A stretch of 61,740 nucleotides of DNA from the IMG/VR virus record IMGVR_UViG_3300045919_000425, positions 97,199 to 158,938 of that record; one strand, given 5' to 3'. Shown piece after piece: positions 4,985-32,076 of this stretch. The notes beneath the pieces were generated by a model that had not been told where the DNA came from, searched no databases, and saw only the letters and a program-made list of their open reading frames with translations. The position numbers and the translations under genes are program-made. Numbering within the stretch: position 1 is the stretch's first letter; every line of letters begins with the position of its first letter. Source of the stretch: a virus.

Positions 4985-6400
4985 ATGAGTTCAAATAAAA
5001 AAGTTATGGAAAATAATGAAGAATATTCTTTTGGTTACAGCGATGTAAAAAACCATCAAGAAGAAAAAATAGTAAAAGGGTTTTACGTTGTACACGCTCC
5101 AGTAGCAGGAGCGATACTGCACCAGGGATTAATAAGGTCGATAGAGAATATCTGCTCAAGAAAAAAAGGACAGCAAGTAATCATCCCAATAAGACATCAT
5201 GCGCAATCCTTTGAAGTTCAAAATGAGAACTTTGACCCAACAGTACTTCAATTATCCAAGAAGTTTCCTATGGTAAAGACATTTAAGTTTAATAAAAATC
5301 TTAAAGCAGTAGACCTTCAGTTGAACGCACAGAACTTAAACCCACTTTCAGGTATCGAGAGATTTACTCAGGATGGAAATCATAGACATTCAGTGATCGT
5401 AGCACATCCAAAACAGGACTATAAAGTGATTCCATTCTCACACATCAAGTCCCCTCATCTTGCATTCACTACAGGAGCATCTACTTATCCATGTTACCGT
5501 GATAACACTCAGGGAAGAAAAGCAGAACAGGAGCATAAGATTGGTTGCGTTATTATCGAGATCTATTCAGAACAAAGATTCCGTATGACACAAGTAGAAG
5601 CAGCGAAAGATGGATCGTTCATCTATGACGGTGTGAAGTACTTACCAAATGGAAGAATTATTGAGAATTTCCAAGTTGAAGCATACATAGCAGGAGACCT
5701 TCACCCAGGTAACCACTCTGAGTTTGCTGTGAATGAGATGCTGAAATTGATTCGTAAATACAAACCAGAGAACTTATTACTTCATGATGCAATGGATTTC
5801 TTCTCGCTAAACCACCATGAAGCGCACAGTGTTCCACTCATGAGAGATCGTATTGTTAATGGACGTACGTTAGACTTTGAAAGAAAAGAAATACTAAAGA
5901 TATTCAATCGACTTGATAGAGCTATGGATGGAAGAGACATTATTATCGTTCCTTCTAATCATAATGACTTCCTTGGTAGAAGACTTCATGAACTTAGATT
6001 AGACCAAGATCCAGTGAACTCAGTGTTGTTAGCCGAGATATACGCTAAGTGGATGAAAGATGGAAGAACAAGGTTTCCAGAAGAGTATTTATTAGATCTT
6101 CCAGATAACTTCCTATTCCCTTCATTGAATCAAGATGTTATTATCGAAGGTTATAACAATATACATGGGGATAAATCGGCAGGTGGAGCAAAAGGTAGCC
6201 CAGGTGCTCTCAATAGAATCTATCAAAAGAGTATCTCAGGCCACACACATAGCCCATGTAAGATAGGTGACACAATTGTAGTTGGAACGAATTCCTTATT
6301 AAAACAAGGCTATAACAACGGTGTACAGAGCTGGCTCCACTCCGATGTGATTATTTATAAAGGTGGACAAACGCAAACAATATTCAAAATACCGGAATAG
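4985..6400 (+). CDS. Calcineurin-like metallophosphoesterase with large N-terminal domain
   Basis: 471 residues; GGGGAG precedes the ATG. The C-terminal half carries the metal-ligand series of calcineurin-like phosphoesterases in order: GDLH at 237-240, HDAMD near 267-271, SNHND at 324-328 (in place of GNHD) and GHTHSP near residue 418. The N-terminal ~230 residues, rich in His and aromatic residues, match no family I recognise. Phage enzymes of this class include nucleases and phosphatases; a DNA or nucleotide target is plausible but not shown. It follows a structured leader with no close copy of the common promoter. Length is well above a minimal phosphoesterase (~200 residues). Confidence 0.8.
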   Translation: MSSNKKVMENNEEYSFGYSDVKNHQEEKIVKGFYVVHAPVAGAILHQGLIRSIENICSRKKGQQVIIPIRHHAQSFEVQNENFDPTVLQLSKKFPMVKTFKFNKNLKAVDLQLNAQNLNPLSGIERFTQDGNHRHSVIVAHPKQDYKVIPFSHIKSPHLAFTTGASTYPCYRDNTQGRKAEQEHKIGCVIIEIYSEQRFRMTQVEAAKDGSFIYDGVKYLPNGRIIENFQVEAYIAGDLHPGNHSEFAVNEMLKLIRKYKPENLLLHDAMDFFSLNHHEAHSVPLMRDRIVNGRTLDFERKEILKIFNRLDRAMDGRDIIIVPSNHNDFLGRRLHELRLDQDPVNSVLLAEIYAKWMKDGRTRFPEEYLLDLPDNFLFPSLNQDVIIEGYNNIHGDKSAGGAKGSPGALNRIYQKSISGHTHSPCKIGDTIVVGTNSLLKQGYNNGVQSWLHSDVIIYKGGQTQTIFKIPE

Positions 6401-7820: not shown

Positions 7821-7849
7821 TTGACTTTTTGTTTCATTCATGGTAGATT
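7821..7849 (+). promoter_or_regulatory. Sigma-70-type promoter P6
   Basis: TTGACT 7821-7826, 17-base spacer, TGG, TAGATT 7844-7849. It precedes the gene at 7880. Confidence 0.75.
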
Positions 7850-7879: not shown

Positions 7880-8425
7880 ATGAGCCGCAAGAGTAAAAAG
7901 AAAGCTAACCGTATTAATCAATCTGGCTCTAAGTACGAAGCGAAGTTTCTAAAACACTACGACGACCGTGAAGCTGATATTTTGAGAGAAAAAAGCTCCG
8001 ATGAATTATTGAATATTGTGGCAAAGTGCCAAGCAAATGTTATGCGGGTTGCCGAAGAGTTAGAAGAAAACAGTGACTATCAAGCAGCTAAAGAAGTGTT
8101 AAAGGACTTTAAGTCAGAAATAACACGGATTACAAAGGAAGCTGAAGAAGACGCTGACTATCAGTCCGCTAAGGCATTTGTAGAAGAGTTCAAAGAAAGA
8201 CTTACTAAGACAATAGAAGAAGCAGAAGGCAATAGTGAGTACGTAGAAGCAAAAGAAACAGTAAAAGCAGTAAGAGCCTCATTAAAGGAAGCAAAAGATT
8301 TCCAAGACGCAAAACAACTATTTTGCGTATCTCTTCTTCATGGACGTGGAGTGGTAGACGCAGGAATATCTCCAAACATACTTGAAGGTGTAGAAATAAC
8401 ATTTAATGGAATAAAAGTAGATTAA
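7880..8425 (+). CDS. Coiled-coil protein with 27-residue internal repeats
   Basis: 181 residues; AAGGAG precedes the ATG. After a basic N-terminus, the middle holds three tandem copies of a ~27-residue helical unit starting at DYQAAK, DYQSAK and EYVEAK, and a shortened fourth (DFQDAK). The composition (Glu, Lys, Ala) predicts long helices or a coiled coil. The last ~40 residues form a different segment with a Cys. No family recognised. The repeats suggest duplication within the gene. Confidence 0.7.
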   Translation: MSRKSKKKANRINQSGSKYEAKFLKHYDDREADILREKSSDELLNIVAKCQANVMRVAEELEENSDYQAAKEVLKDFKSEITRITKEAEEDADYQSAKAFVEEFKERLTKTIEEAEGNSEYVEAKETVKAVRASLKEAKDFQDAKQLFCVSLLHGRGVVDAGISPNILEGVEITFNGIKVD

Positions 8426-8430
8426 TCTAC

Positions 8431-8459
8431 TTGACTAATTAGCCAATTCATTCTATAGT
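8431..8459 (+). promoter_or_regulatory. Sigma-70-type promoter P7 with leader hairpin
   Basis: TTGACT 8431-8436, 17-base spacer, TATAGT 8454-8459. Just downstream, ATAGCAG (8464-8470) pairs with CTGCTAT (8484-8490), with an inner GAG/CTC, so the lon transcript would begin with a hairpin. Confidence 0.75.
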
Positions 8460-8516
8460 TAAGATAGCAGTGAGGTTCTGCTCCTGCTATGCAAGTTCTA
8501 TGACCAGGAGGTTAAG

Positions 8517-10706
8517 ATGAGCGGTGATTTCATGAAATTCAAGAAGCTCCCAGAGTCGGTGAAGTCTAAAATTTTGGACTTAGAAGTTAGTAGGTTCCTT
8601 CGAGGAACGGCAGAGTTCCATCAGGTTGATGGGTATTCCATAAGCATTGTAAAGTTCCGCCTCTCAAAGTCTCAGTTTCCTGACTCGCTCTATCTTTATA
8701 ACGCATGCGTAAGCGAAGGATTTCCGAACGAAGAACTCCAGAACTCGCTCCCATGGGAATTAGGCGAAGATATATCCAAAACACATCCTAACTTATCGTA
8801 TCGCAGTCCTAACGCTCTTTGGAAATTCATTTCTGGCATCCCCGTAACCGATAATATTGGAGAAGGTTACTGTGGAGAACTTGCTCAGGTAGCTTTAACT
8901 AAATCTAGCGAATTAACTGAAGATGAGGAGAATGCACGTATGCAAGATGAAAATATGAACGAATTAAAAGAGTTGAGCCTTCGTATTCAGAATTCTAAGA
9001 TGGGAAGAGAGCAAAAAGAAAAAGTAAAGAAAGAATACCGGAAATTAACCATGCTTGCCCCGCAAACGTCAGAGTCCGCCTTGCAACGTGTATATCTCGA
9101 TACAGTGCTTTCATTGCCATGGAATGAATACGCAGTAGAAACGAATGATCTTATAAGGTCTGAAGAAGTATTAAATAGTAGCCATTATGGATTAAAGGCA
9201 GTAAAAGAAAGAGTTTTAGAGTATTTAGCAGTTAACCAATTCACAGGAACAACCAGCAATGGGACAATGCTTTGTCTTTATGGTCCTCCTGGAGTAGGAA
9301 AAACGTCAATAGCTCAATCCATCGCAGATGCAACAGGCAGGGAACTTGTAACAGTAGCGCTAGGCGGAGTATCAGACGAAGCAGATATCCGTGGACATAG
9401 GAAGACATACATAGGCTCAATGCCTGGAAGAATTATGGCAGCGATAAAAAAAGCAAACAAGATGAATCCGATTATCTTACTAGATGAGATAGATAAGATG
9501 GGCGCAACAAATAAAGGAGACCCAGCCGCAGCATTATTAGAGGTATTAGACCCATCACAAAACAAGAAATTTGTGGATCATTACCTGGAAATGGAATTTG
9601 ACTTGTCTAAGGTTATGTTTATAGCAACAGCAAATAGCTTAAATACAATCTCCTCCCCATTAAGAGATCGCATGGAGATTGTTACATTAACAGGATATAC
9701 AGACCAGGAAAAAGTAGAAATAGGACGCAAACACTTAGCTGTGAGTGTCCTTAAGAAGTCAGGGCTATTAAACAGGGGGATTAAGTTCTCTGTAGAGTCA
9801 ATTGAGGAAATAATCAAACACTATACAAAAGAAGCAGGAGTCCGTAACTTAGAAAAAGAAATGTCTAAAGTTTGTCGTAAGATAGTAAAGTCAGCTTTAG
9901 ACGGGAAGAAAGAGTTGGTGTCTGGAATTAGCCGTATGAGCTTTAAAGGTGCAGAAAAAGATAATGAACGGAATATTACACCTGCAATAGTTAATAAGTT
10001 GCTCGGTGTTCGTAAATTCGAAGATGAGCTTAAGAATAAGAAGAACGAGGTTGGAGTAGCACAAGGTCTGGCTTACACTTCAGTCGGCGGATGTCTTCTG
10101 TTTGTAGAAGTAGCTATCACTAAAGGGAAGGGCGGATTCAAGACTACAGGGCAGTTGGGTGATGTTATGAAAGAATCCTCACAGATCGCATTAACTTACA
10201 TTCAAACTAGAAGTGAAATGTTAGGAATATCTGATGAATTCTTCGAGAAACATAACATTCACATTCACTTTCCTGACGGAAATACGCCAAAAGATGGACC
10301 TTCTGCTGGCATTGCTCTTACTCTAGCTATTACCTCTGCAATTACAGGTATTCCTTATAACAGGAATGTTGCAGGGACAGGTGAAGTCGATTTAAGAGGG
10401 AATGCTTTACCTATTGGTGGAGTAAAGGAGAAAATGATCGGAGCTTATGTGGCAGGCGTATCTCAGGTATTTATCCCTAGAACTAATATTAAGGATTTAT
10501 ACGAAGTATCCGATGAGATTAAGGGTAAGATAGAAATACTTCCTATTTCTTGTGCAGAAGAAGCGCTTTTAATAGCTTTAGATTTCAATACCCCGAAAGC
10601 ACTAGAAGTAAAGCAAAAAATAAGTGACTTTCTATTCTTAAATGGAGTCTCTGCCGTCACTGTTAAGCATTCATTAGAGTCTCATCCGAGTTTATCCAGT
10701 AAGTAA
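8517..10706 (+). CDS. lon: ATP-dependent Lon protease
   Basis: 729 residues; CCAGGAGG precedes the ATG. The AAA+ part has Walker A GPPGVGKT at 256-263, the Lon hallmark GHRKTYIGSMPGR near 293-305, Walker B ILLDEID at 320-326 and ATANS sensor 1. The protease domain has the Ser-Lys dyad: S596 in PKDGPSAG and K639 in GGVKEKM, 43 residues apart as in E. coli (S679/K722). The N-terminal substrate domain (~200 residues before the ATPase) is shorter and diverged. The enzyme should be an active cytoplasmic protease. In a phage it could clear host regulators or antiphage proteins, or process virion proteins; the target is unknown. It ends at an 11-bp hairpin. Confidence 0.95.
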   Translation: MSGDFMKFKKLPESVKSKILDLEVSRFLRGTAEFHQVDGYSISIVKFRLSKSQFPDSLYLYNACVSEGFPNEELQNSLPWELGEDISKTHPNLSYRSPNALWKFISGIPVTDNIGEGYCGELAQVALTKSSELTEDEENARMQDENMNELKELSLRIQNSKMGREQKEKVKKEYRKLTMLAPQTSESALQRVYLDTVLSLPWNEYAVETNDLIRSEEVLNSSHYGLKAVKERVLEYLAVNQFTGTTSNGTMLCLYGPPGVGKTSIAQSIADATGRELVTVALGGVSDEADIRGHRKTYIGSMPGRIMAAIKKANKMNPIILLDEIDKMGATNKGDPAAALLEVLDPSQNKKFVDHYLEMEFDLSKVMFIATANSLNTISSPLRDRMEIVTLTGYTDQEKVEIGRKHLAVSVLKKSGLLNRGIKFSVESIEEIIKHYTKEAGVRNLEKEMSKVCRKIVKSALDGKKELVSGISRMSFKGAEKDNERNITPAIVNKLLGVRKFEDELKNKKNEVGVAQGLAYTSVGGCLLFVEVAITKGKGGFKTTGQLGDVMKESSQIALTYIQTRSEMLGISDEFFEKHNIHIHFPDGNTPKDGPSAGIALTLAITSAITGIPYNRNVAGTGEVDLRGNALPIGGVKEKMIGAYVAGVSQVFIPRTNIKDLYEVSDEIKGKIEILPISCAEEALLIALDFNTPKALEVKQKISDFLFLNGVSAVTVKHSLESHPSLSSK

Positions 10707-11783: not shown

Positions 11784-12349
11784 GTTATTTGCCATTAAGC
11801 CCTATTAAAGTAAGCCCAGGTATCGCTATAGGTGGGATTGCTATTTCAATGATAGTTGGCGGAGTATTAACAAAAACCCTATTGCCAACAAAGACCATAG
11901 AGATTACTAAGACGATAGAAATAGAGAAGAAGACAGAACTAAAGTCGGATAAAACAATAGCGCAGTCTTCAGATAATTTAGTGCAGGATAATGTAATTAC
12001 TTACACTACAATAAAAAGAAAAGACGGTACCGTAATTACTACCGAAAAGATAGATAAATCAATTAAGCATAATAAAGAAAATACCACTTCCCATGATAAA
12101 CAGGAAGTGGTGAAAGAAGAGCATGAGTTTTCTAGGGAGGATAAGAAGATTACTGAATTAAACAAGTCAAGTAATTGGGGATTAGGCTTATCATACAAGG
12201 CTTCTAATTTTAGGGATATTTCTTTAGAGTATCCAAATGTAAAGAACTTAGGAGGGTCTTTAGAGTACAAGGCATTAGACACTTTAGGGTTTCAGTTACA
12301 GGTCTTTACAGACCTTTCCGCAACTCTAACAGTGAAGTACTGGTTTTAG
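11780..12349 (+). CDS. Membrane-anchored hypothetical protein
   Basis: 189 residues, overlapping the preceding gene by ATGA. One N-terminal membrane segment (about residues 14-36, Gly/Ile/Val-rich), then a long Lys/Glu/Thr linker with the repeated-type TKTIEITKTIEIEKK, then a C-terminal beta-rich region ending in KYWF. This layout is common in phage envelope proteins; a spanin-like or lysis-related role is possible but unproved. A 9-bp intragenic hairpin lies at 12083-12111. The gene overlaps the convergent dnaE 3' half by 44 bases. Confidence 0.65.
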   Translation: MSYLPLSPIKVSPGIAIGGIAISMIVGGVLTKTLLPTKTIEITKTIEIEKKTELKSDKTIAQSSDNLVQDNVITYTTIKRKDGTVITTEKIDKSIKHNKENTTSHDKQEVVKEEHEFSREDKKITELNKSSNWGLGLSYKASNFRDISLEYPNVKNLGGSLEYKALDTLGFQLQVFTDLSATLTVKYWF

Positions 12350-12806
12350 TCTTTTTCATTGATTCCTTCTTTGGAGCTTTCTCTTTCACAATCTTCTTAG
12401 AACATATATCTTCCAAATTAAAGCTTAGAAATTTCTCCAGATTAGCAGCAAAAGCACCTCCAACTCCCTTGAGTGAAGAAAGAGGCGGCCTAAGCTTATC
12501 CCCTTCAATGGTAAATTCAGATGGATGACTTTTAAGAATATCTGCCGGAAGAATCATTTCTGACAATTCTTTTGAATACTCTCTGAGCTTATCCCTATCA
12601 GCAGATTCGGCAGAAAGCTCAGCAAGCCAAAAATCCATCGGGTAATGCTTCTTTAGGAATGCTGAATTATATGAAACAATTGAATAAGAACAGTTGTGAG
12701 CTACAGTACCGTTTTCAAGTACAAAGTTGTGGTTAGTCGGCATAACTAGATCAAACACTTGCTGTTCACCTAACGACTTAACACTCTTCACCTTTAATTT
12801 CTTCAT
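12306..12806 (-). CDS. dnaE: Split intein C-half fused to the C-terminal part of DNA polymerase III alpha
   Basis: 166 residues with its own strong ribosome site (AAGGAGG then ATG at 12806). Residues 1-38 are an intein C-terminal half: VFDLVMPTNHNFVLENG (block F) and TVAHN followed by Cys (block G, the His-Asn-Cys splice junction). From C39, CSYSIVSYNSAFLKKHYP continues the DnaE fold exactly where the N-half gene breaks off (compare FNKSHSAAYALV... in bacterial DnaE). The C-extein is 128 residues, including a helix-hairpin-helix-like SLKGVGGAFAANL. Protein trans-splicing with the product of the gene at 13760-16579 would give a polymerase of ~959 residues. It overlaps the endonuclease gene by 29 bases. 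Confidence 0.92.
   Translation of the reverse strand: MKKLKVKSVKSLGEQQVFDLVMPTNHNFVLENGTVAHNCSYSIVSYNSAFLKKHYPMDFWLAELSAESADRDKLREYSKELSEMILPADILKSHPSEFTIEGDKLRPPLSSLKGVGGAFAANLEKFLSFNLEDICSKKIVKEKAPKKESMKKTKTSTSLLELRKGL
12693..12806 (-). other. Intein C-half (IntC, 38 residues)
   Basis: It holds intein blocks F and G with the terminal His-Asn and the +1 Cys in the extein (TGT at 12690-12692). Its size is close to known split-intein C-halves (about 35-40 residues). Confidence 0.9.
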
Positions 12807-13803
12807 AAATCCTCCTTAGTTCAGATTCCCATGTTTCTTGTTGATCATCCCAGAATACTAGTAAATCCTTACCGTTCTCCTCGGCTATCTTCTTCTTGAA
12901 TTCATCATTCTTAATATTCTTGGTTACTACATCCCTTAAAATTTCTTTAGTGTAATCATGCCACACTCGCCCGTGCATTTCGAATAAAGTATTAATCTTA
13001 GGGGAATAAATATCAAAACTACGATACCTACTAAAACACTTAATCCTATACTCCATAACAGCAGCAGGATCATACTCCTTCACCATCCCATATAGCTTCT
13101 GTTGAGGCTTAGTGACTCTCCACTTAGATAGCATTTGCGATCCCATCCTAGAAGCGCTCTCAATACACTTAGGCGAAGCTTTCTGTCCTTTACTTATAAA
13201 CAAGCCTCGTCTTTTAATGTTCATACTAACCACCTCCTCTATTGGTAATTCAAGCAAGTAAGCAATCACGGCATTTTGTTGATTATGACCTCTTTTTTCC
13301 GGGTCTTGAATCTCAACCTCACAGAACTGATACATGAAATCAGGAAATAACTTACTTAGCTTGCTGTGAATATCTTTAAAAGGAAGTGTCTCATCTTTCT
13401 TAAAATTACTAAACAGTTCTTTACTTTTTCTCCTTATCTTATCTACAGGATAGTTTTTTATACGAGTCTTACATGCAGGGTTATTAAGACCTACCCTTTT
13501 CTTACTCATAGTGTTAGCACTAGAACTCCTCATAACTCCGGTAGCACGAGGAGGGATAAAAACCCAGTCTTCGAGTGAATTAACTTTCTCAAGAACTCTA
13601 ATCCACCAGTCAGTGTAAGCAATACTATCAGTCCCGTCAGACTTCAACCAAGCAATATGGTTAACTCTTACACGGTCAATCATTGTAAGTACTTCACTCT
13701 TCCAATCTTCTGAAGAAGTGCACTTAGGGCCAGTAATATGAACCCTTAAGGTATTACCTTTAACGTTCTTTCCGCACCGGCATGTAACATAACTCATTTT
13801 CAT
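12778..13803 (-). CDS. Vsr-like homing endonuclease lying between the split intein halves
   Basis: 341 residues (ATG at 13803 or 13797; only a weak ribosome site, so translation is probably coupled to the upstream gene). The C-terminal ~100 residues match the Vsr/EDxHD nuclease pattern: TKPQQKLYGMVKE, then SFDIYSPKINTLFEMHGRVWH, then KNDEFKKKIAEENGKDLLVFW with conserved D, E, H and K. The N-terminus has a possible zinc site (CRC...H...C). KKRVGLNNPACK resembles a NUMOD DNA-binding helix. It overlaps dnaE-N/IntN by 44 bases and IntC/dnaE-C by 29, each in a different frame. Vsr-like enzymes are the known partners of fractured genes with split inteins, so it probably cuts intein-less dnaE alleles. 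Confidence 0.85.
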   Translation of the reverse strand: MKMSYVTCRCGKNVKGNTLRVHITGPKCTSSEDWKSEVLTMIDRVRVNHIAWLKSDGTDSIAYTDWWIRVLEKVNSLEDWVFIPPRATGVMRSSSANTMSKKRVGLNNPACKTRIKNYPVDKIRRKSKELFSNFKKDETLPFKDIHSKLSKLFPDFMYQFCEVEIQDPEKRGHNQQNAVIAYLLELPIEEVVSMNIKRRGLFISKGQKASPKCIESASRMGSQMLSKWRVTKPQQKLYGMVKEYDPAAVMEYRIKCFSRYRSFDIYSPKINTLFEMHGRVWHDYTKEILRDVVTKNIKNDEFKKKIAEENGKDLLVFWDDQQETWESELRRIYEEIKGEEC

Positions 13804-16579
13804 CTAGCATAGACCATTCTCCCCCATCCTTGATTGCGTGATTCAACTCCACCCATTGCCCATTATACCACACTCTATGGTCACTCGTAAGCTGAATTTT
13901 ACTTCCGTCCTCAAACTCAACCTCAAAAACTTCCTTTATACCTTGATTCAGTAGCTCCAATGGCTTCTCATATTTAACAGCGCCATCTTGATCGATAAAC
14001 TTAACTTCAGGAAGATTATCATTACTCATATCGCCTATCTTTACATTACCGATAGAAGTTTGAATTTCTTGCTCGGAAAATACACAACTATGACTCCTAT
14101 TAAATCCGTATTTTCCGCTAGCTTCAATCATCTCACCTAACTCCTTCGCTTGTTCCAAGCTCCACCCTCGCTTATCCATAACGGTACTTTTTAATCCTCC
14201 TAAGTGCTTAATCAATGCCTGAGCGTCTTTTTTTCCAATTGCACGCCTAACTCCCTCAGCGTCTTCGTATGTGTACCCACCAAGATCACGAAACACTCTT
14301 AAGGTCTGTTCCTGAAATAAAGGAACACCAAAGGTAGATTCAAATATTGGAATCATGTCAGGATGGATGTATCTCGGAGACAACTTACCTGACGAGCATT
14401 GAATGTAATATTCAACCGCATTTCCTTTAAAATCCTCCCTGTCAATTATCCAGTCCAGGCATGATGGCCTATAAAGAGCAATAAGGTTAGAAATTTGGTC
14501 AATATTTTTAGGTTTAGTCTGAATACAAAGATTCGTAATTCCCTTTGTCTTAGTTTGAAATGTCGCTGAGGTATCTCCTGTGTGGTAAATATCCTCATAA
14601 ACTTTCGGATCTTGTCTGAATAGTTCCCATTTCATCACCTCTCCGGTTCTTTTCTTTATGTTATTCATCGCTCTTTGTATTGTATTAAGAGCCGTGACTC
14701 CTAAAATATCAACCTTTAATCCACCCACATATTCTACGTCTTTAGGACTAAAAGCCGCAGCTAACGTCGCTTTCTTGCCAGCGCCAACTCGACAAAGAGG
14801 CATAAAGTGATGAATAGGCTCATCCGCAACAATCACAGCACAAGCATGCACGGACTTTTGACGAGAAATTCCACACATAGCTAGCACGGACTCCCAGATC
14901 TCTGGATTGTTCTTCGCATAAAGCTGTAAGTCTGGCGCATCTTCAAAATATCCCTTTACGTGCTCCCCTTCCTGATTTGTATATCCAAACATCCAGTCAT
15001 TCTCAGATATCCCTTGAGGTATCTGAGGCATCTTGATAGTCATCCTGTTCGTTTCTTCCCGCACGCTTCCTAAAATGAACCGCTCTGAATCCTTAATGGC
15101 AGATTTTGGCTTCATCAAAATATCTATAGAGAGTGGAACCATATGGGTTCCGTATTTTTCTTTCATTAGGTCGAGAATTTTATGCTTATCAGAAAAGTCC
15201 ATATCAAAGTCTGGAGGAGTATTTGCATTAATACGACCCCTCGTAAGAAACCGCTCAAATGGTAAGTCGTATTCTAATGAATTTGTAACGGAAATCCCAA
15301 GAGCGTTAGCAAGTAAGCAACCACCGCCAGAACCACGTAGCTGCATTAAGATATCGTTCTTTTTTGCCATTTCCGCAATATCTGACACCATAAGAAGGTA
15401 ATTTAAGCCATCTAGTTTCTGATTACTGTTTAGTACGGAAACTTCGTAGTTTAATCGATCCTTGTTCACTTGTTCTGATAAGTCTAAGATTTTAGATTCC
15501 TCCGCTCTTTTAACAATCTCTCTCTTGGGTGTAGTAGATACTTTCGGTATTTTCCATGCCCGTTCATTGATTGTTAAGAATTCGTATCCTGAGAACATAT
15601 CAGCATACGCATGAGTGTTATCAATTAGTTCCTCGAAATCACGGTCAGATAGAATGTCGGAATGGGATTTCCTAGCTTCTTCGACAATTTCACCTGCGCA
15701 CATAACATGTTGAAATTGACTCATAACCCAGCCATCATTTTTAGCATCCTGTGCCACCTTATGAGCCTTTTCCGCATAATGAGCATCTTGACTGAATAGC
15801 GGCTTAATGCCAAGAGATTTAGTTAAAGGCAGCCTTAGTCTGTTAATTTCCCTTTGAATATCAGGGTGGTTAAAATAAGGCTTACATTCGTTAACTTCTA
15901 GTCTGGATGGCAACCCAAGCTCGGCATCTTCTTTTTTATACTGATGAGTCAAATCCTCAACAATTATTTCATCGAATAAGTTCTCTTTACCTATCACATC
16001 AATCATCATGTTAATTCGTTTAGCGGCCTCAGCAAGACCATATCCATCGAGAATAGGTTTGTTGCACCACGATCCTACACAACCCGTACCAACAGTAATT
16101 CCATGACCAGAGAGTTCGATAAACTCCTCCCAATTCATAACGGGCTTACCTTTATAGTACCGCTCATCCGAATAAAGCACGGCAGTTAATTTACAGTAAG
16201 ACTCATACGCAGCCCTTGTCTTAAACCCAATAGTTATATGGGAATAAACCTTACTTTCGTTGCCGTATCTGTCCACTTTTCCTTTCATAATATCATTAGG
16301 CCAGAAAATATAAGCTTCAACCCCATGAATGACTTTCATTCCGAATTCTTTGGCATATCTGTGAACCGAGGCAGCGGAATTCAATGAGCCGTGTTCCGTA
16401 ACTGATACATGAGTCATTCCACATGTTTTCATTCTTTTTACCATAGATTTAACAGTAGACGCACCATCTAATGAACCGCAATCTGTATGAGCATGCACTG
16501 CGCATGCCAGCCTTTTCCCCTTAAACTGATTCTCTCCTTTGAAGGGTGTAAAATCCCACAGACTCTTGACTCCACTCAT
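13760..16579 (-). CDS. dnaE: DNA polymerase III alpha, N-terminal part, fused to split intein N-half
   Basis: 939 residues; AAGGAGG precedes the ATG. Residues 1-831 are a C-family polymerase: PHP domain from HAHTDCGSLDG (29-39) with TEHG at 61-64 and DAHY near 265; GSGGGCLLANALGIS; catalytic PPDFDMDF with D459 and D461; and the third Asp D624 in LKVDILG. EGVRRAIGKKD and KYGFNRSHS complete the fingers. From C832 the remaining 108 residues are an intein N-half (blocks A and B, with LTSDH). The break falls after FNRSHS, seven residues beyond the cyanobacterial DnaE split-intein site. It should be the phage replicase after trans-splicing; the PHP domain could supply proofreading, as no separate exonuclease gene was seen. 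It is driven by promoter P8. Confidence 0.95.
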   Translation of the reverse strand: MSGVKSLWDFTPFKGENQFKGKRLACAVHAHTDCGSLDGASTVKSMVKRMKTCGMTHVSVTEHGSLNSAASVHRYAKEFGMKVIHGVEAYIFWPNDIMKGKVDRYGNESKVYSHITIGFKTRAAYESYCKLTAVLYSDERYYKGKPVMNWEEFIELSGHGITVGTGCVGSWCNKPILDGYGLAEAAKRINMMIDVIGKENLFDEIIVEDLTHQYKKEDAELGLPSRLEVNECKPYFNHPDIQREINRLRLPLTKSLGIKPLFSQDAHYAEKAHKVAQDAKNDGWVMSQFQHVMCAGEIVEEARKSHSDILSDRDFEELIDNTHAYADMFSGYEFLTINERAWKIPKVSTTPKREIVKRAEESKILDLSEQVNKDRLNYEVSVLNSNQKLDGLNYLLMVSDIAEMAKKNDILMQLRGSGGGCLLANALGISVTNSLEYDLPFERFLTRGRINANTPPDFDMDFSDKHKILDLMKEKYGTHMVPLSIDILMKPKSAIKDSERFILGSVREETNRMTIKMPQIPQGISENDWMFGYTNQEGEHVKGYFEDAPDLQLYAKNNPEIWESVLAMCGISRQKSVHACAVIVADEPIHHFMPLCRVGAGKKATLAAAFSPKDVEYVGGLKVDILGVTALNTIQRAMNNIKKRTGEVMKWELFRQDPKVYEDIYHTGDTSATFQTKTKGITNLCIQTKPKNIDQISNLIALYRPSCLDWIIDREDFKGNAVEYYIQCSSGKLSPRYIHPDMIPIFESTFGVPLFQEQTLRVFRDLGGYTYEDAEGVRRAIGKKDAQALIKHLGGLKSTVMDKRGWSLEQAKELGEMIEASGKYGFNRSHSCVFSEQEIQTSIGNVKIGDMSNDNLPEVKFIDQDGAVKYEKPLELLNQGIKEVFEVEFEDGSKIQLTSDHRVWYNGQWVELNHAIKDGGEWSMLDENELCYMPVRKER
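13763..14086 (-). other. Intein N-half (IntN, 108 residues)
   Basis: It starts with Cys (C832 of the fusion). CVFSEQEIQTSIGNVKIGDM is block A and DGSKIQLTSDHRVWYNGQW is block B with the TxxH motif. There is no endonuclease domain in this frame. The frame ends about where a cis-intein would carry its homing domain. Confidence 0.9.
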
Positions 16580-31136: not shown

Positions 31137-31622
31137 TTATTTGCCTATAAATTCCTCATCACCTAAATCCATAAGCGTTTCAGCATTAAAGTCAGAATAA
31201 TCGAAATAAAGGTCGGAATGGTCTTCGTTTCCGTTAAATAAGTTTTCTTCTTTGTGAATGTTCTGTAGTTCTGTAACAGGAGATAGAGCCTTAAGTTTCT
31301 GTAGCGCAGTTTTTTCAATCGCTTCAATTTGCTTAGTATTCAAGCCTATTCTTTTTGAGATTTCTTTATAAGTAAGCCCTTCGTTTGTCATCGCAAGAAA
31401 TTTGAACATGCAGAAGGAATGTTTGTCTTCCGTTAGTATCCCAAAAGGACATCCAGGTGCAGTTTTTTCTAATTTAGCTGAGTATCCGAAATTGTCTTGC
31501 TCCCAAGCTACCCTAGAAACACCTTCTTCGCAAGGCGAAGAAGGAAAGTTCTTAAGGTTCCTAATGCAGACTTCCTGGAATCTACTTTTATTACTACAAC
31601 CAGTTTTAGGCTTTTTTTGCAC
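31137..31622 (-). CDS. Sigma-70 region 4-like DNA-binding protein
   Basis: About 161 residues from a GTG at 31622, with AAAGGA 5 bases before it; the longer frame would need a TTG at 31655 with no ribosome site. The helix-turn-helix LTYKEISKRIGLNTKQIEAIEKTALQKL matches sigma factor region 4. Upstream is a Cys-containing segment (NFPSSPCEEG, APGCPFGI, SFCMFKF) of a type I know from phage sigma-like proteins. It may redirect RNA polymerase to late promoters (inference). The last ~45 residues are acidic. A 10-bp hairpin with a 3-base loop lies at 31522-31544. Confidence 0.7.
   Translation of the reverse strand: MQKKPKTGCSNKSRFQEVCIRNLKNFPSSPCEEGVSRVAWEQDNFGYSAKLEKTAPGCPFGILTEDKHSFCMFKFLAMTNEGLTYKEISKRIGLNTKQIEAIEKTALQKLKALSPVTELQNIHKEENLFNGNEDHSDLYFDYSDFNAETLMDLGDEEFIGK
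31522..31544. repeat. 10-bp perfect hairpin in coding sequence
   Basis: CCTTCTTCGC and GCGAAGAAGG with a 3-base loop, inside the sigma-like gene over the SSPCEEG codons. Confidence 0.7.
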
Positions 31623-32076
31623 GACGAGATCCTTTAGGAGCTGAAAGAAGAGCAACTGCTTTTTCAGCGTTTTCTAGCCTTGATAAAAGCAAACTCAAGG
31701 ATTCTTCGGTAATGTTTGCACGGGAGACAAGAGAATTAACAAGCTTATCTATCCCTGCTACGTTAAAGTATAGTTTTGGAATGGTCTTATCTAGGATAGA
31801 TTCAAGTTCGTTGACATTACATTCAATCTTTGAGATACTGTCCATAATAATAGTTACGGGATCTGGGTAAGGTGTCGAATTAATAGTGCCATTCTTTATA
31901 GAAATAAGTTCGGATTCTAATGCTTCCTCTTTCTTTTCTAATTCCCCTAACTCTAATTTAACTAAAAGCACAGACTCTTCTAGTTTTTCTTTTTCTAGTT
32001 CTATAACATCAACCAATTCAGCATTTTCAGATACTTTTTTTACTAGGGCAGATACAGCTTTACGATTCTTACTCAT
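31606..32076 (-). CDS. Coiled-coil protein, possible scaffold
   Basis: 156 residues from the ATG at 32076, 7 bases from AAAGGA; an ATG six bases earlier is too close to it. Glu/Leu/Lys-rich helices at about 25-65 predict a coiled coil. The C-terminus is basic (KGSRRAKKA). It lies directly downstream of the portal gene, where scaffold or head-completion genes are often found, but no family is recognised. It overlaps the sigma-like gene by 17 bases. Confidence 0.6.
   Translation of the reverse strand: MSKNRKAVSALVKKVSENAELVDVIELEKEKLEESVLLVKLELGELEKKEEALESELISIKNGTINSTPYPDPVTIIMDSISKIECNVNELESILDKTIPKLYFNVAGIDKLVNSLVSRANITEESLSLLLSRLENAEKAVALLSAPKGSRRAKKA

Follow-up and report, generated by a model that had tools for sequence, protein, structure and literature searches.

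A phage-encoded LonA-type protease core with a short orphan N-terminal region

A large phage contig from the IMG/VR database encodes a protein of the Lon family, denoted here wLon, in which an apparently complete LonA-type ATPase–protease core is preceded by a short orphan sequence instead of the substrate-binding domain and tyrosine-doublet collar of ordinary Lons. Carriage of Lon by a phage is not in itself exceptional; what sets wLon apart is this front end, in which both the N-terminal domain and the collar are replaced. We consider it fairly probable that wLon is a catalytically competent ATP-dependent protease of the LonA type with an exchanged substrate-selection front end, whose N-terminal region recruits a narrow set of proteins. 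The window analyzed here (61,740 nucleotides) corresponds to positions 97,199 to 158,938 of the virus record IMGVR_UViG_3300045919_000425, which comprises 158,938 bases and is apparently a fragment. The features of the wLon gene are listed in Table 1; all coordinates are those of the window unless stated otherwise.

Table 1. Features of the wLon gene and its upstream region (window coordinates; residue numbers refer to the wLon protein)
Feature	Position	Strand	Basis or remarks
Predicted sigma-70-like promoter, TTGACT-17-TATAGT	8431..8459	+	ends 57 bases before the wLon ATG
Leader hairpin (weak)	8464..8490	+	in the predicted 5' UTR of wLon
Shine-Dalgarno sequence, AGGAGG	8506..8511	+	sequence; strong, 5 nt before the ATG
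wLon (phage LonA-type protease)	8517..10706	+	729 aa, ATG start; open reading frame present as annotated
Orphan N-terminal region, residues 1-140	8517..8936	+	in place of the LonA substrate-binding domain and upper connecting helix
Predicted long helix, residues 119-159	8871..8993	+	AlphaFold2, alignment and motif count; shortened connecting helix without tyrosine doublet
AAA+ large domain	9270..9689	+	Pfam AAA, 252-391; invariant columns
Walker A GPPGVGKT (256-263), Walker B LLDEIDK (321-327)	within AAA+ large domain
Pore loop Y298, sensor 1 N373, Arg finger R385	within AAA+ large domain
AAA+ lid domain, sensor 2 R443	9753..9911	+	Pfam Lon_lid, 413-465
S16 Ser-Lys proteolytic domain	9975..10580	+	Pfam Lon_C, 487-688; Foldseek to LonA structures
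Catalytic S596	10302..10304	+	in DGPSAG; invariant in the 36-Lon alignment
Catalytic K639	10431..10433	+	in GGVKEK; invariant in the 36-Lon alignment
C-terminal extension, residues 690-729	10584..10703	+	AlphaFold2: predicted helix 693-708

The assignment of the core draws on several searches. Pfam analysis of wLon produced hits to Lon_C (5e-73), AAA (4e-27) and Lon_lid (2e-18), each well beyond its curated cut-off. The NCBIfam equivalog model for lon (TIGR00763) scored 706.7 bits against a cut-off of 608, with the alignment starting at residue 142. Bacterial LonA proteins are the closest solved structures among PDB sequences, and a Foldseek search seeded with the AlphaFold2 model of wLon also retrieved LonA structures, with E-values down to 8.6e-57. 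In a conservation alignment of wLon with 35 other Lons (36 in total), the Walker A and B motifs, Y298, N373, R385, R443, S596 and K639 are all retained in wLon; the AAA+ residues are named by homology to LonA. The Pfam and TIGR00763 matches and the alignment bear out the full AAA+ and Ser-Lys protease (S596, K639) proposed in the initial annotation, and residues ~142-690 constitute a complete LonA core. The models for LonB (TIGR00764, 112.5 against a cut-off of 516.6) and BrxL (TIGR02653, 45.4 against 628) scored far below threshold on wLon, and the core is assigned to LonA and to neither of these families.

Upstream of the core, the resemblance to Lon ends. PF02190, the LAN substrate-binding domain, was not found in wLon by Pfam, in which the first 143 residues matched nothing even at a maximum E-value of 10. 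Residues 1-140 could not be matched to aligned Lon N-domains (0.1% probability in hhalign), and no relative of the N-terminal region was detected among PDB sequences, INPHARED phages, IMG/VR, the contig itself or the other loci examined. Walker A starts at residue 256 in wLon, compared with 313-415 in 162 other Lons, making the N-terminal part of wLon by far the shortest among the 163 Lons in which Walker A follows the canonical pattern; the hhalign result and the position of Walker A agree with the earlier description of this domain as shorter and different. In other Lons, a conserved aromatic doublet (QREYYLNEQ) marks the connecting helix of the collar. The tyrosine-doublet motif precedes Walker A in 164 of 171 Lons but is absent from wLon; it is likewise missing from one fragment at a contig end, a possible chimera, the Lon of a candidate phylum and three diverged Lons of phages. 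AlphaFold2 gave pLDDT values below 50 for residues 1-121, and the helix at about 119-159 is confidently predicted only from about residue 140, while the mean pLDDT of a single-sequence model of the N-domain was 46.5. The third-position G+C of the segment encoding this domain (0.43) is slightly higher than that of the rest of the gene. The domain, which is known from one genome, could be a diverged form or a degenerate remnant. Since PF02190 is absent, we classify wLon, judging by sequence, as a LonA-core variant and not as a canonical LonA. At the other end of the protein, no relative of residues 686-729 was found in the contig itself or in the other loci examined.

A careful Lon tree (42 rows, 534 columns), for which the sampling of bacterial Lons was skewed to the best matches with the addition of some Bacillota, placed wLon within a supported set of 18 rows (100/97) that includes Pseudomonadota, Bdellovibrionota, Myxococcota and Thermodesulfobacteriota, apart from the phage Lons. 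Given the long branches, that of wLon among them, this placement is unsure, and the apparent affinity of wLon to the proteobacterial and Bdellovibrionota/Myxococcota lineages is weak. Forcing all phage Lons and wLon into one clade was not rejected (p-AU 0.13), and forcing wLon together with the main phage clade was weakly rejected (p-AU 0.034). The end branch of wLon amounts to 1.8-2.1 changes per column, and the sampled Lons share about 50% identity with it at best, so that the tight grouping with host Lon that the initial annotation had named as grounds for abandoning its proposal is not seen. Nor does wLon group closely with any one host lineage among the sampled Lons, as recent acquisition from a host would lead one to expect.

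Despite an end branch of about two changes per column, wLon has kept 118 of the 124 positions that are near-invariant in the 35 other Lons, three of the six departures being located in the protease domain (A589N, M620G, A642G). This pattern of conservation, which is distinct from a dN/dS estimate, indicates long purifying selection on both the ATPase and the protease. The same pattern bears on the possibility that wLon is a decayed or dominant-negative Lon, a truncated protein that would poison or replace subunits of the host enzyme and so attain the effect of the T4 inhibitor PinA by other means. The loss of the N-domain and collar would fit such a function, phages do inhibit Lon (PinA; PMC8835725), and mixed hexamers are conceivable. 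However, full retention of the catalytic and ATPase residues on a very long branch would be unexpected without selection for activity, and with about 50% or less identity between wLon and the sampled host Lons, co-assembly is uncertain; we hold this scenario to be quite improbable.

The wLon gene is a genuine phage gene and does not represent host contamination. The same window encodes a portal protein, terminase, DNA ligase, baseplate protein, helicase and DnaE-like polymerase, and the G+C content of the gene (39.7%) as well as its codon-position G+C match those of the other phage genes, which suggests that the gene has long resided in the phage. The nearest deposited phage by TerL, portal and baseplate J is Myxococcus phage Mx1, at 25-31% identity, and the wLon phage is therefore a distant relative of a known phage; IMG/VR searches with TerL and the DNA polymerase as queries detected no close relatives. 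The setting of the gene is relevant to a role in virion maturation, that is, cleavage of structural precursors. In favor of such a role, wLon is a protease and its phage is tailed, with numerous large structural proteins. Yet wLon is located in a cluster of replication and host-interaction genes and not with the head genes, and Lon typically degrades its substrates processively rather than by limited cleavage. Furthermore, a separate 260-aa homolog of the putative prohead protease of Mx1 is encoded elsewhere on the contig, which speaks against such processing by wLon, and we assign this role a very low probability.

Several other genes in the vicinity merit description. A T5 A1-like protein (phrog_1745) with relatives in more than 1,000 deposited phages is encoded at positions 4985-6400, 2 kb upstream of lon; in T5, A1 is linked to the destruction of host DNA. 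Approximately 13-16 kb upstream of lon (L012:9557-12190; contig positions 89557-92190, before the start of the window) lie a PRPP-synthetase-like gene and an adjacent nicotinamide/nicotinate phosphoribosyltransferase-like (NAMPT) gene, the product of which has ~125 residues beyond the family model, a possible insertion. We take this pair to resemble the NAD+ reconstitution pair of phages (NARP1-like). The T5 A1-, NAMPT- and PRPP-synthetase-like neighbors are plausibly involved in host takeover or counter-defense, which is compatible with such a role for wLon. Downstream of lon, on the minus strand, the gene for the DnaE-like DNA polymerase III alpha subunit (12306-16579) is broken by a split intein in a 'fractured gene' layout: the N-terminal piece (13760-16579) has an intein N-terminal region at its end (TIGR01445, marginally below the cut-off), the C-terminal piece (12306-12806) has an intein C-terminal region at its start (TIGR01443), and between the two lies a separate ORF of 341 aa (12778-13803) with an endonuclease-like appearance. 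A possible phage sigma factor of 172 aa, containing a sigma-70 region 4 domain, is encoded on the minus strand at 31137-31655.

Expression of wLon would be driven by a promoter of phage type. For the pattern TTGACT-N16-18-TANNNT, 13 sites were counted in the window, where 3.1 would be expected (0 of 100 shuffles), and further copies are spread over the contig, often a short way ahead of genes and often in the form TTGACTTNTAGTTAA; given this enrichment and recurrence, it appears to define a phage promoter class, of which the wLon copy is a looser member. The extended motif TTGACTTNTAGTTAA...TANNNT is found contig-wide, with several near-identical copies at contig positions 3.8-16.4 kb. A generic promoter scan of the window yielded 47 sites against 46.7 by chance, that is, no enrichment, which is seen only for the TTGACT pattern. 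Folding of the leader was modest when compared with shuffles (z -1.84), 6 of 200 of which folded equally well; of the promoter with a leader hairpin that had been proposed for this gene, the promoter thus holds up and the hairpin does not stand out. The gene directly upstream of lon (7880-8425), which has its own copy of the TTGACT promoter at 7821, encodes a charged protein of 181 aa with about three imperfect repeats (DYQxAK) and no family match at cut-off; a role as an adaptor is conceivable.

Phages were initially stated to encode, as a rule, inhibitors of Lon instead of Lon itself. PinA is real, but an alignment-based scan of IMG/VR, which yielded 102 Lon-encoding contigs, 80 of them kept, revealed at least five other large phage contigs (158, 437, 372, 190 and 113 kb) that combine a terminase (TerL) match with Lon, so this generalization is not supported. 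The phage Lons considered are those of contigs L064, L068, L070, L083 and L089 and of the Moraxella prophage Mcat3. In the other large phages, the N-terminal half of Lon is always of normal length. PF02190 was recognized in 34 of the 36 Lons aligned, and single checks of the diverged phage Lons showed it to be missing only from that of L089. Phage-encoded Lon is thus recurrent, and wLon is distinct by its front end. A scan of IMG/VR with wLon alone found no close relative, and a limited open-access text search found no papers on phage-encoded Lon.

Several candidates did not qualify. Most Lon matches in INPHARED were rejected as phage Lons: that of Acinetobacter 'phage MD-2021a' lies among the host genes gdhA, adk and ubiH, and those of human-faecal contigs are of bacterial type. 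Many IMG/VR matches, with lon at the very edge of contigs of 20-60 kb, were taken to represent host lon next to a provirus. The protein of L083 was rejected as an N-truncated Lon, as a full PF02190 domain is encoded from an earlier non-ATG start. In an 8.7-kb contig, a single ORF (L079:1203-3935) joins a prohead-protease-like N-terminal part in frame to a Pseudomonas-like Lon core; as this fusion may be a chimera of assembly, it was not counted among the phage Lons.

The phage Lons with normal N-domains raise the possibility that wLon is a general proteostasis helper that adds quality-control capacity in a large-phage infection, the change of its N-domain being incidental. Their neighbors include genes for DnaB helicase and RNR (L064), topoisomerase II (L068, L089) and phage GroEL (L070), and the core of wLon is ordinary. 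However, wLon is missing exactly those parts, the N-domain and collar, that capture and feed generic unfolded substrates, and E. coli Lon 253-784, which is deprived of both by removal of residues 1-252, is impaired on HspQ and degrades casein poorly (PMC8835725). We regard a purely general role as unlikely.

We favor instead a protease with an exchanged front end. Judging from the conserved residues and the fold, wLon would assemble as a hexamer, the AAA+ pore of which would thread proteins into the Ser596/Lys639 chamber for cleavage. The unrelated N-terminal region of ~140 aa and the shortened helix would stand in for the N-domain and collar, with the N-terminal region supplying substrate capture, directly or via an adaptor, most likely for a narrow range of proteins. 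The product of a gene with its own phage-type promoter might in this way rid the infected cell of selected host or phage proteins. The initial annotation had proposed that the changed N-domain may send the protease to new targets, such as host regulators, antiphage proteins or precursors of virion proteins. Published work on T. thermophilus and E. coli Lon assigns substrate recognition to the N-domains and reports a need for the collar in degradation (PMC8835725), so that a changed substrate choice may be expected. Host regulators and antiphage proteins are candidate targets; virion precursors are improbable ones in view of the gene cluster and the prohead protease homolog. Retargeting is accordingly plausible on the strength of the loss of the collar as well as of the N-domain. 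A more specific version, in which the N-terminal region is a dedicated recruiter for phage-owned, targeted degradation of one or a few host proteins, such as a defense protein or a transcription regulator, can be put forward tentatively.

The N-domain and collar of Lon are thought to be needed for choosing and feeding substrates, and the wLon engine appears to have been long conserved without either, so that wLon offers a natural test of the function of the Lon front end. It is also a candidate agent by which the phage may destroy selected host proteins. The Lons of other large phage contigs suggest that phages have repeatedly taken to carrying Lon themselves and do not confine themselves to blocking it.

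Among known systems, bacterial LonA (endopeptidase La; TIGR00763, MEROPS S16) shares with wLon the AAA+ and S16 domains, the catalytic residues and the predicted fold of the core, with 45-50% identity over wLon residues 142-690 to the Lons of E. coli, Y. pestis, T. thermophilus and M. taiwanensis. Unlike LonA, wLon has no LAN domain (PF02190), no tyrosine-doublet collar and about 100 residues fewer before Walker A, and it carries a C-terminal extension. In ordinary Lon, the beta-rich N-domain captures the substrate, and the connecting-helix collar with its tyrosine doublet passes it on; wLon, by its sequence, has neither. In LonB and BrxL, a Lon-type protease domain works with different targeting domains. 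The other phage Lons resemble wLon in being complete Lons in tailed-phage or prophage genomes but differ in that their N-terminal part is of normal length and in nearly all cases contains a recognizable PF02190 domain; in Myxococcus phage Mx1, no Lon was found at an E-value of 1e-5. T4 PinA, a phage inhibitor of host Lon (PMC8835725), and wLon both represent phage handling of Lon-type proteolysis, although PinA is not itself a protease. If the N-terminal region is a dedicated recruiter, wLon would be the phage equivalent of proteolysis directed by adaptors, created through replacement of the front end and collar of Lon.
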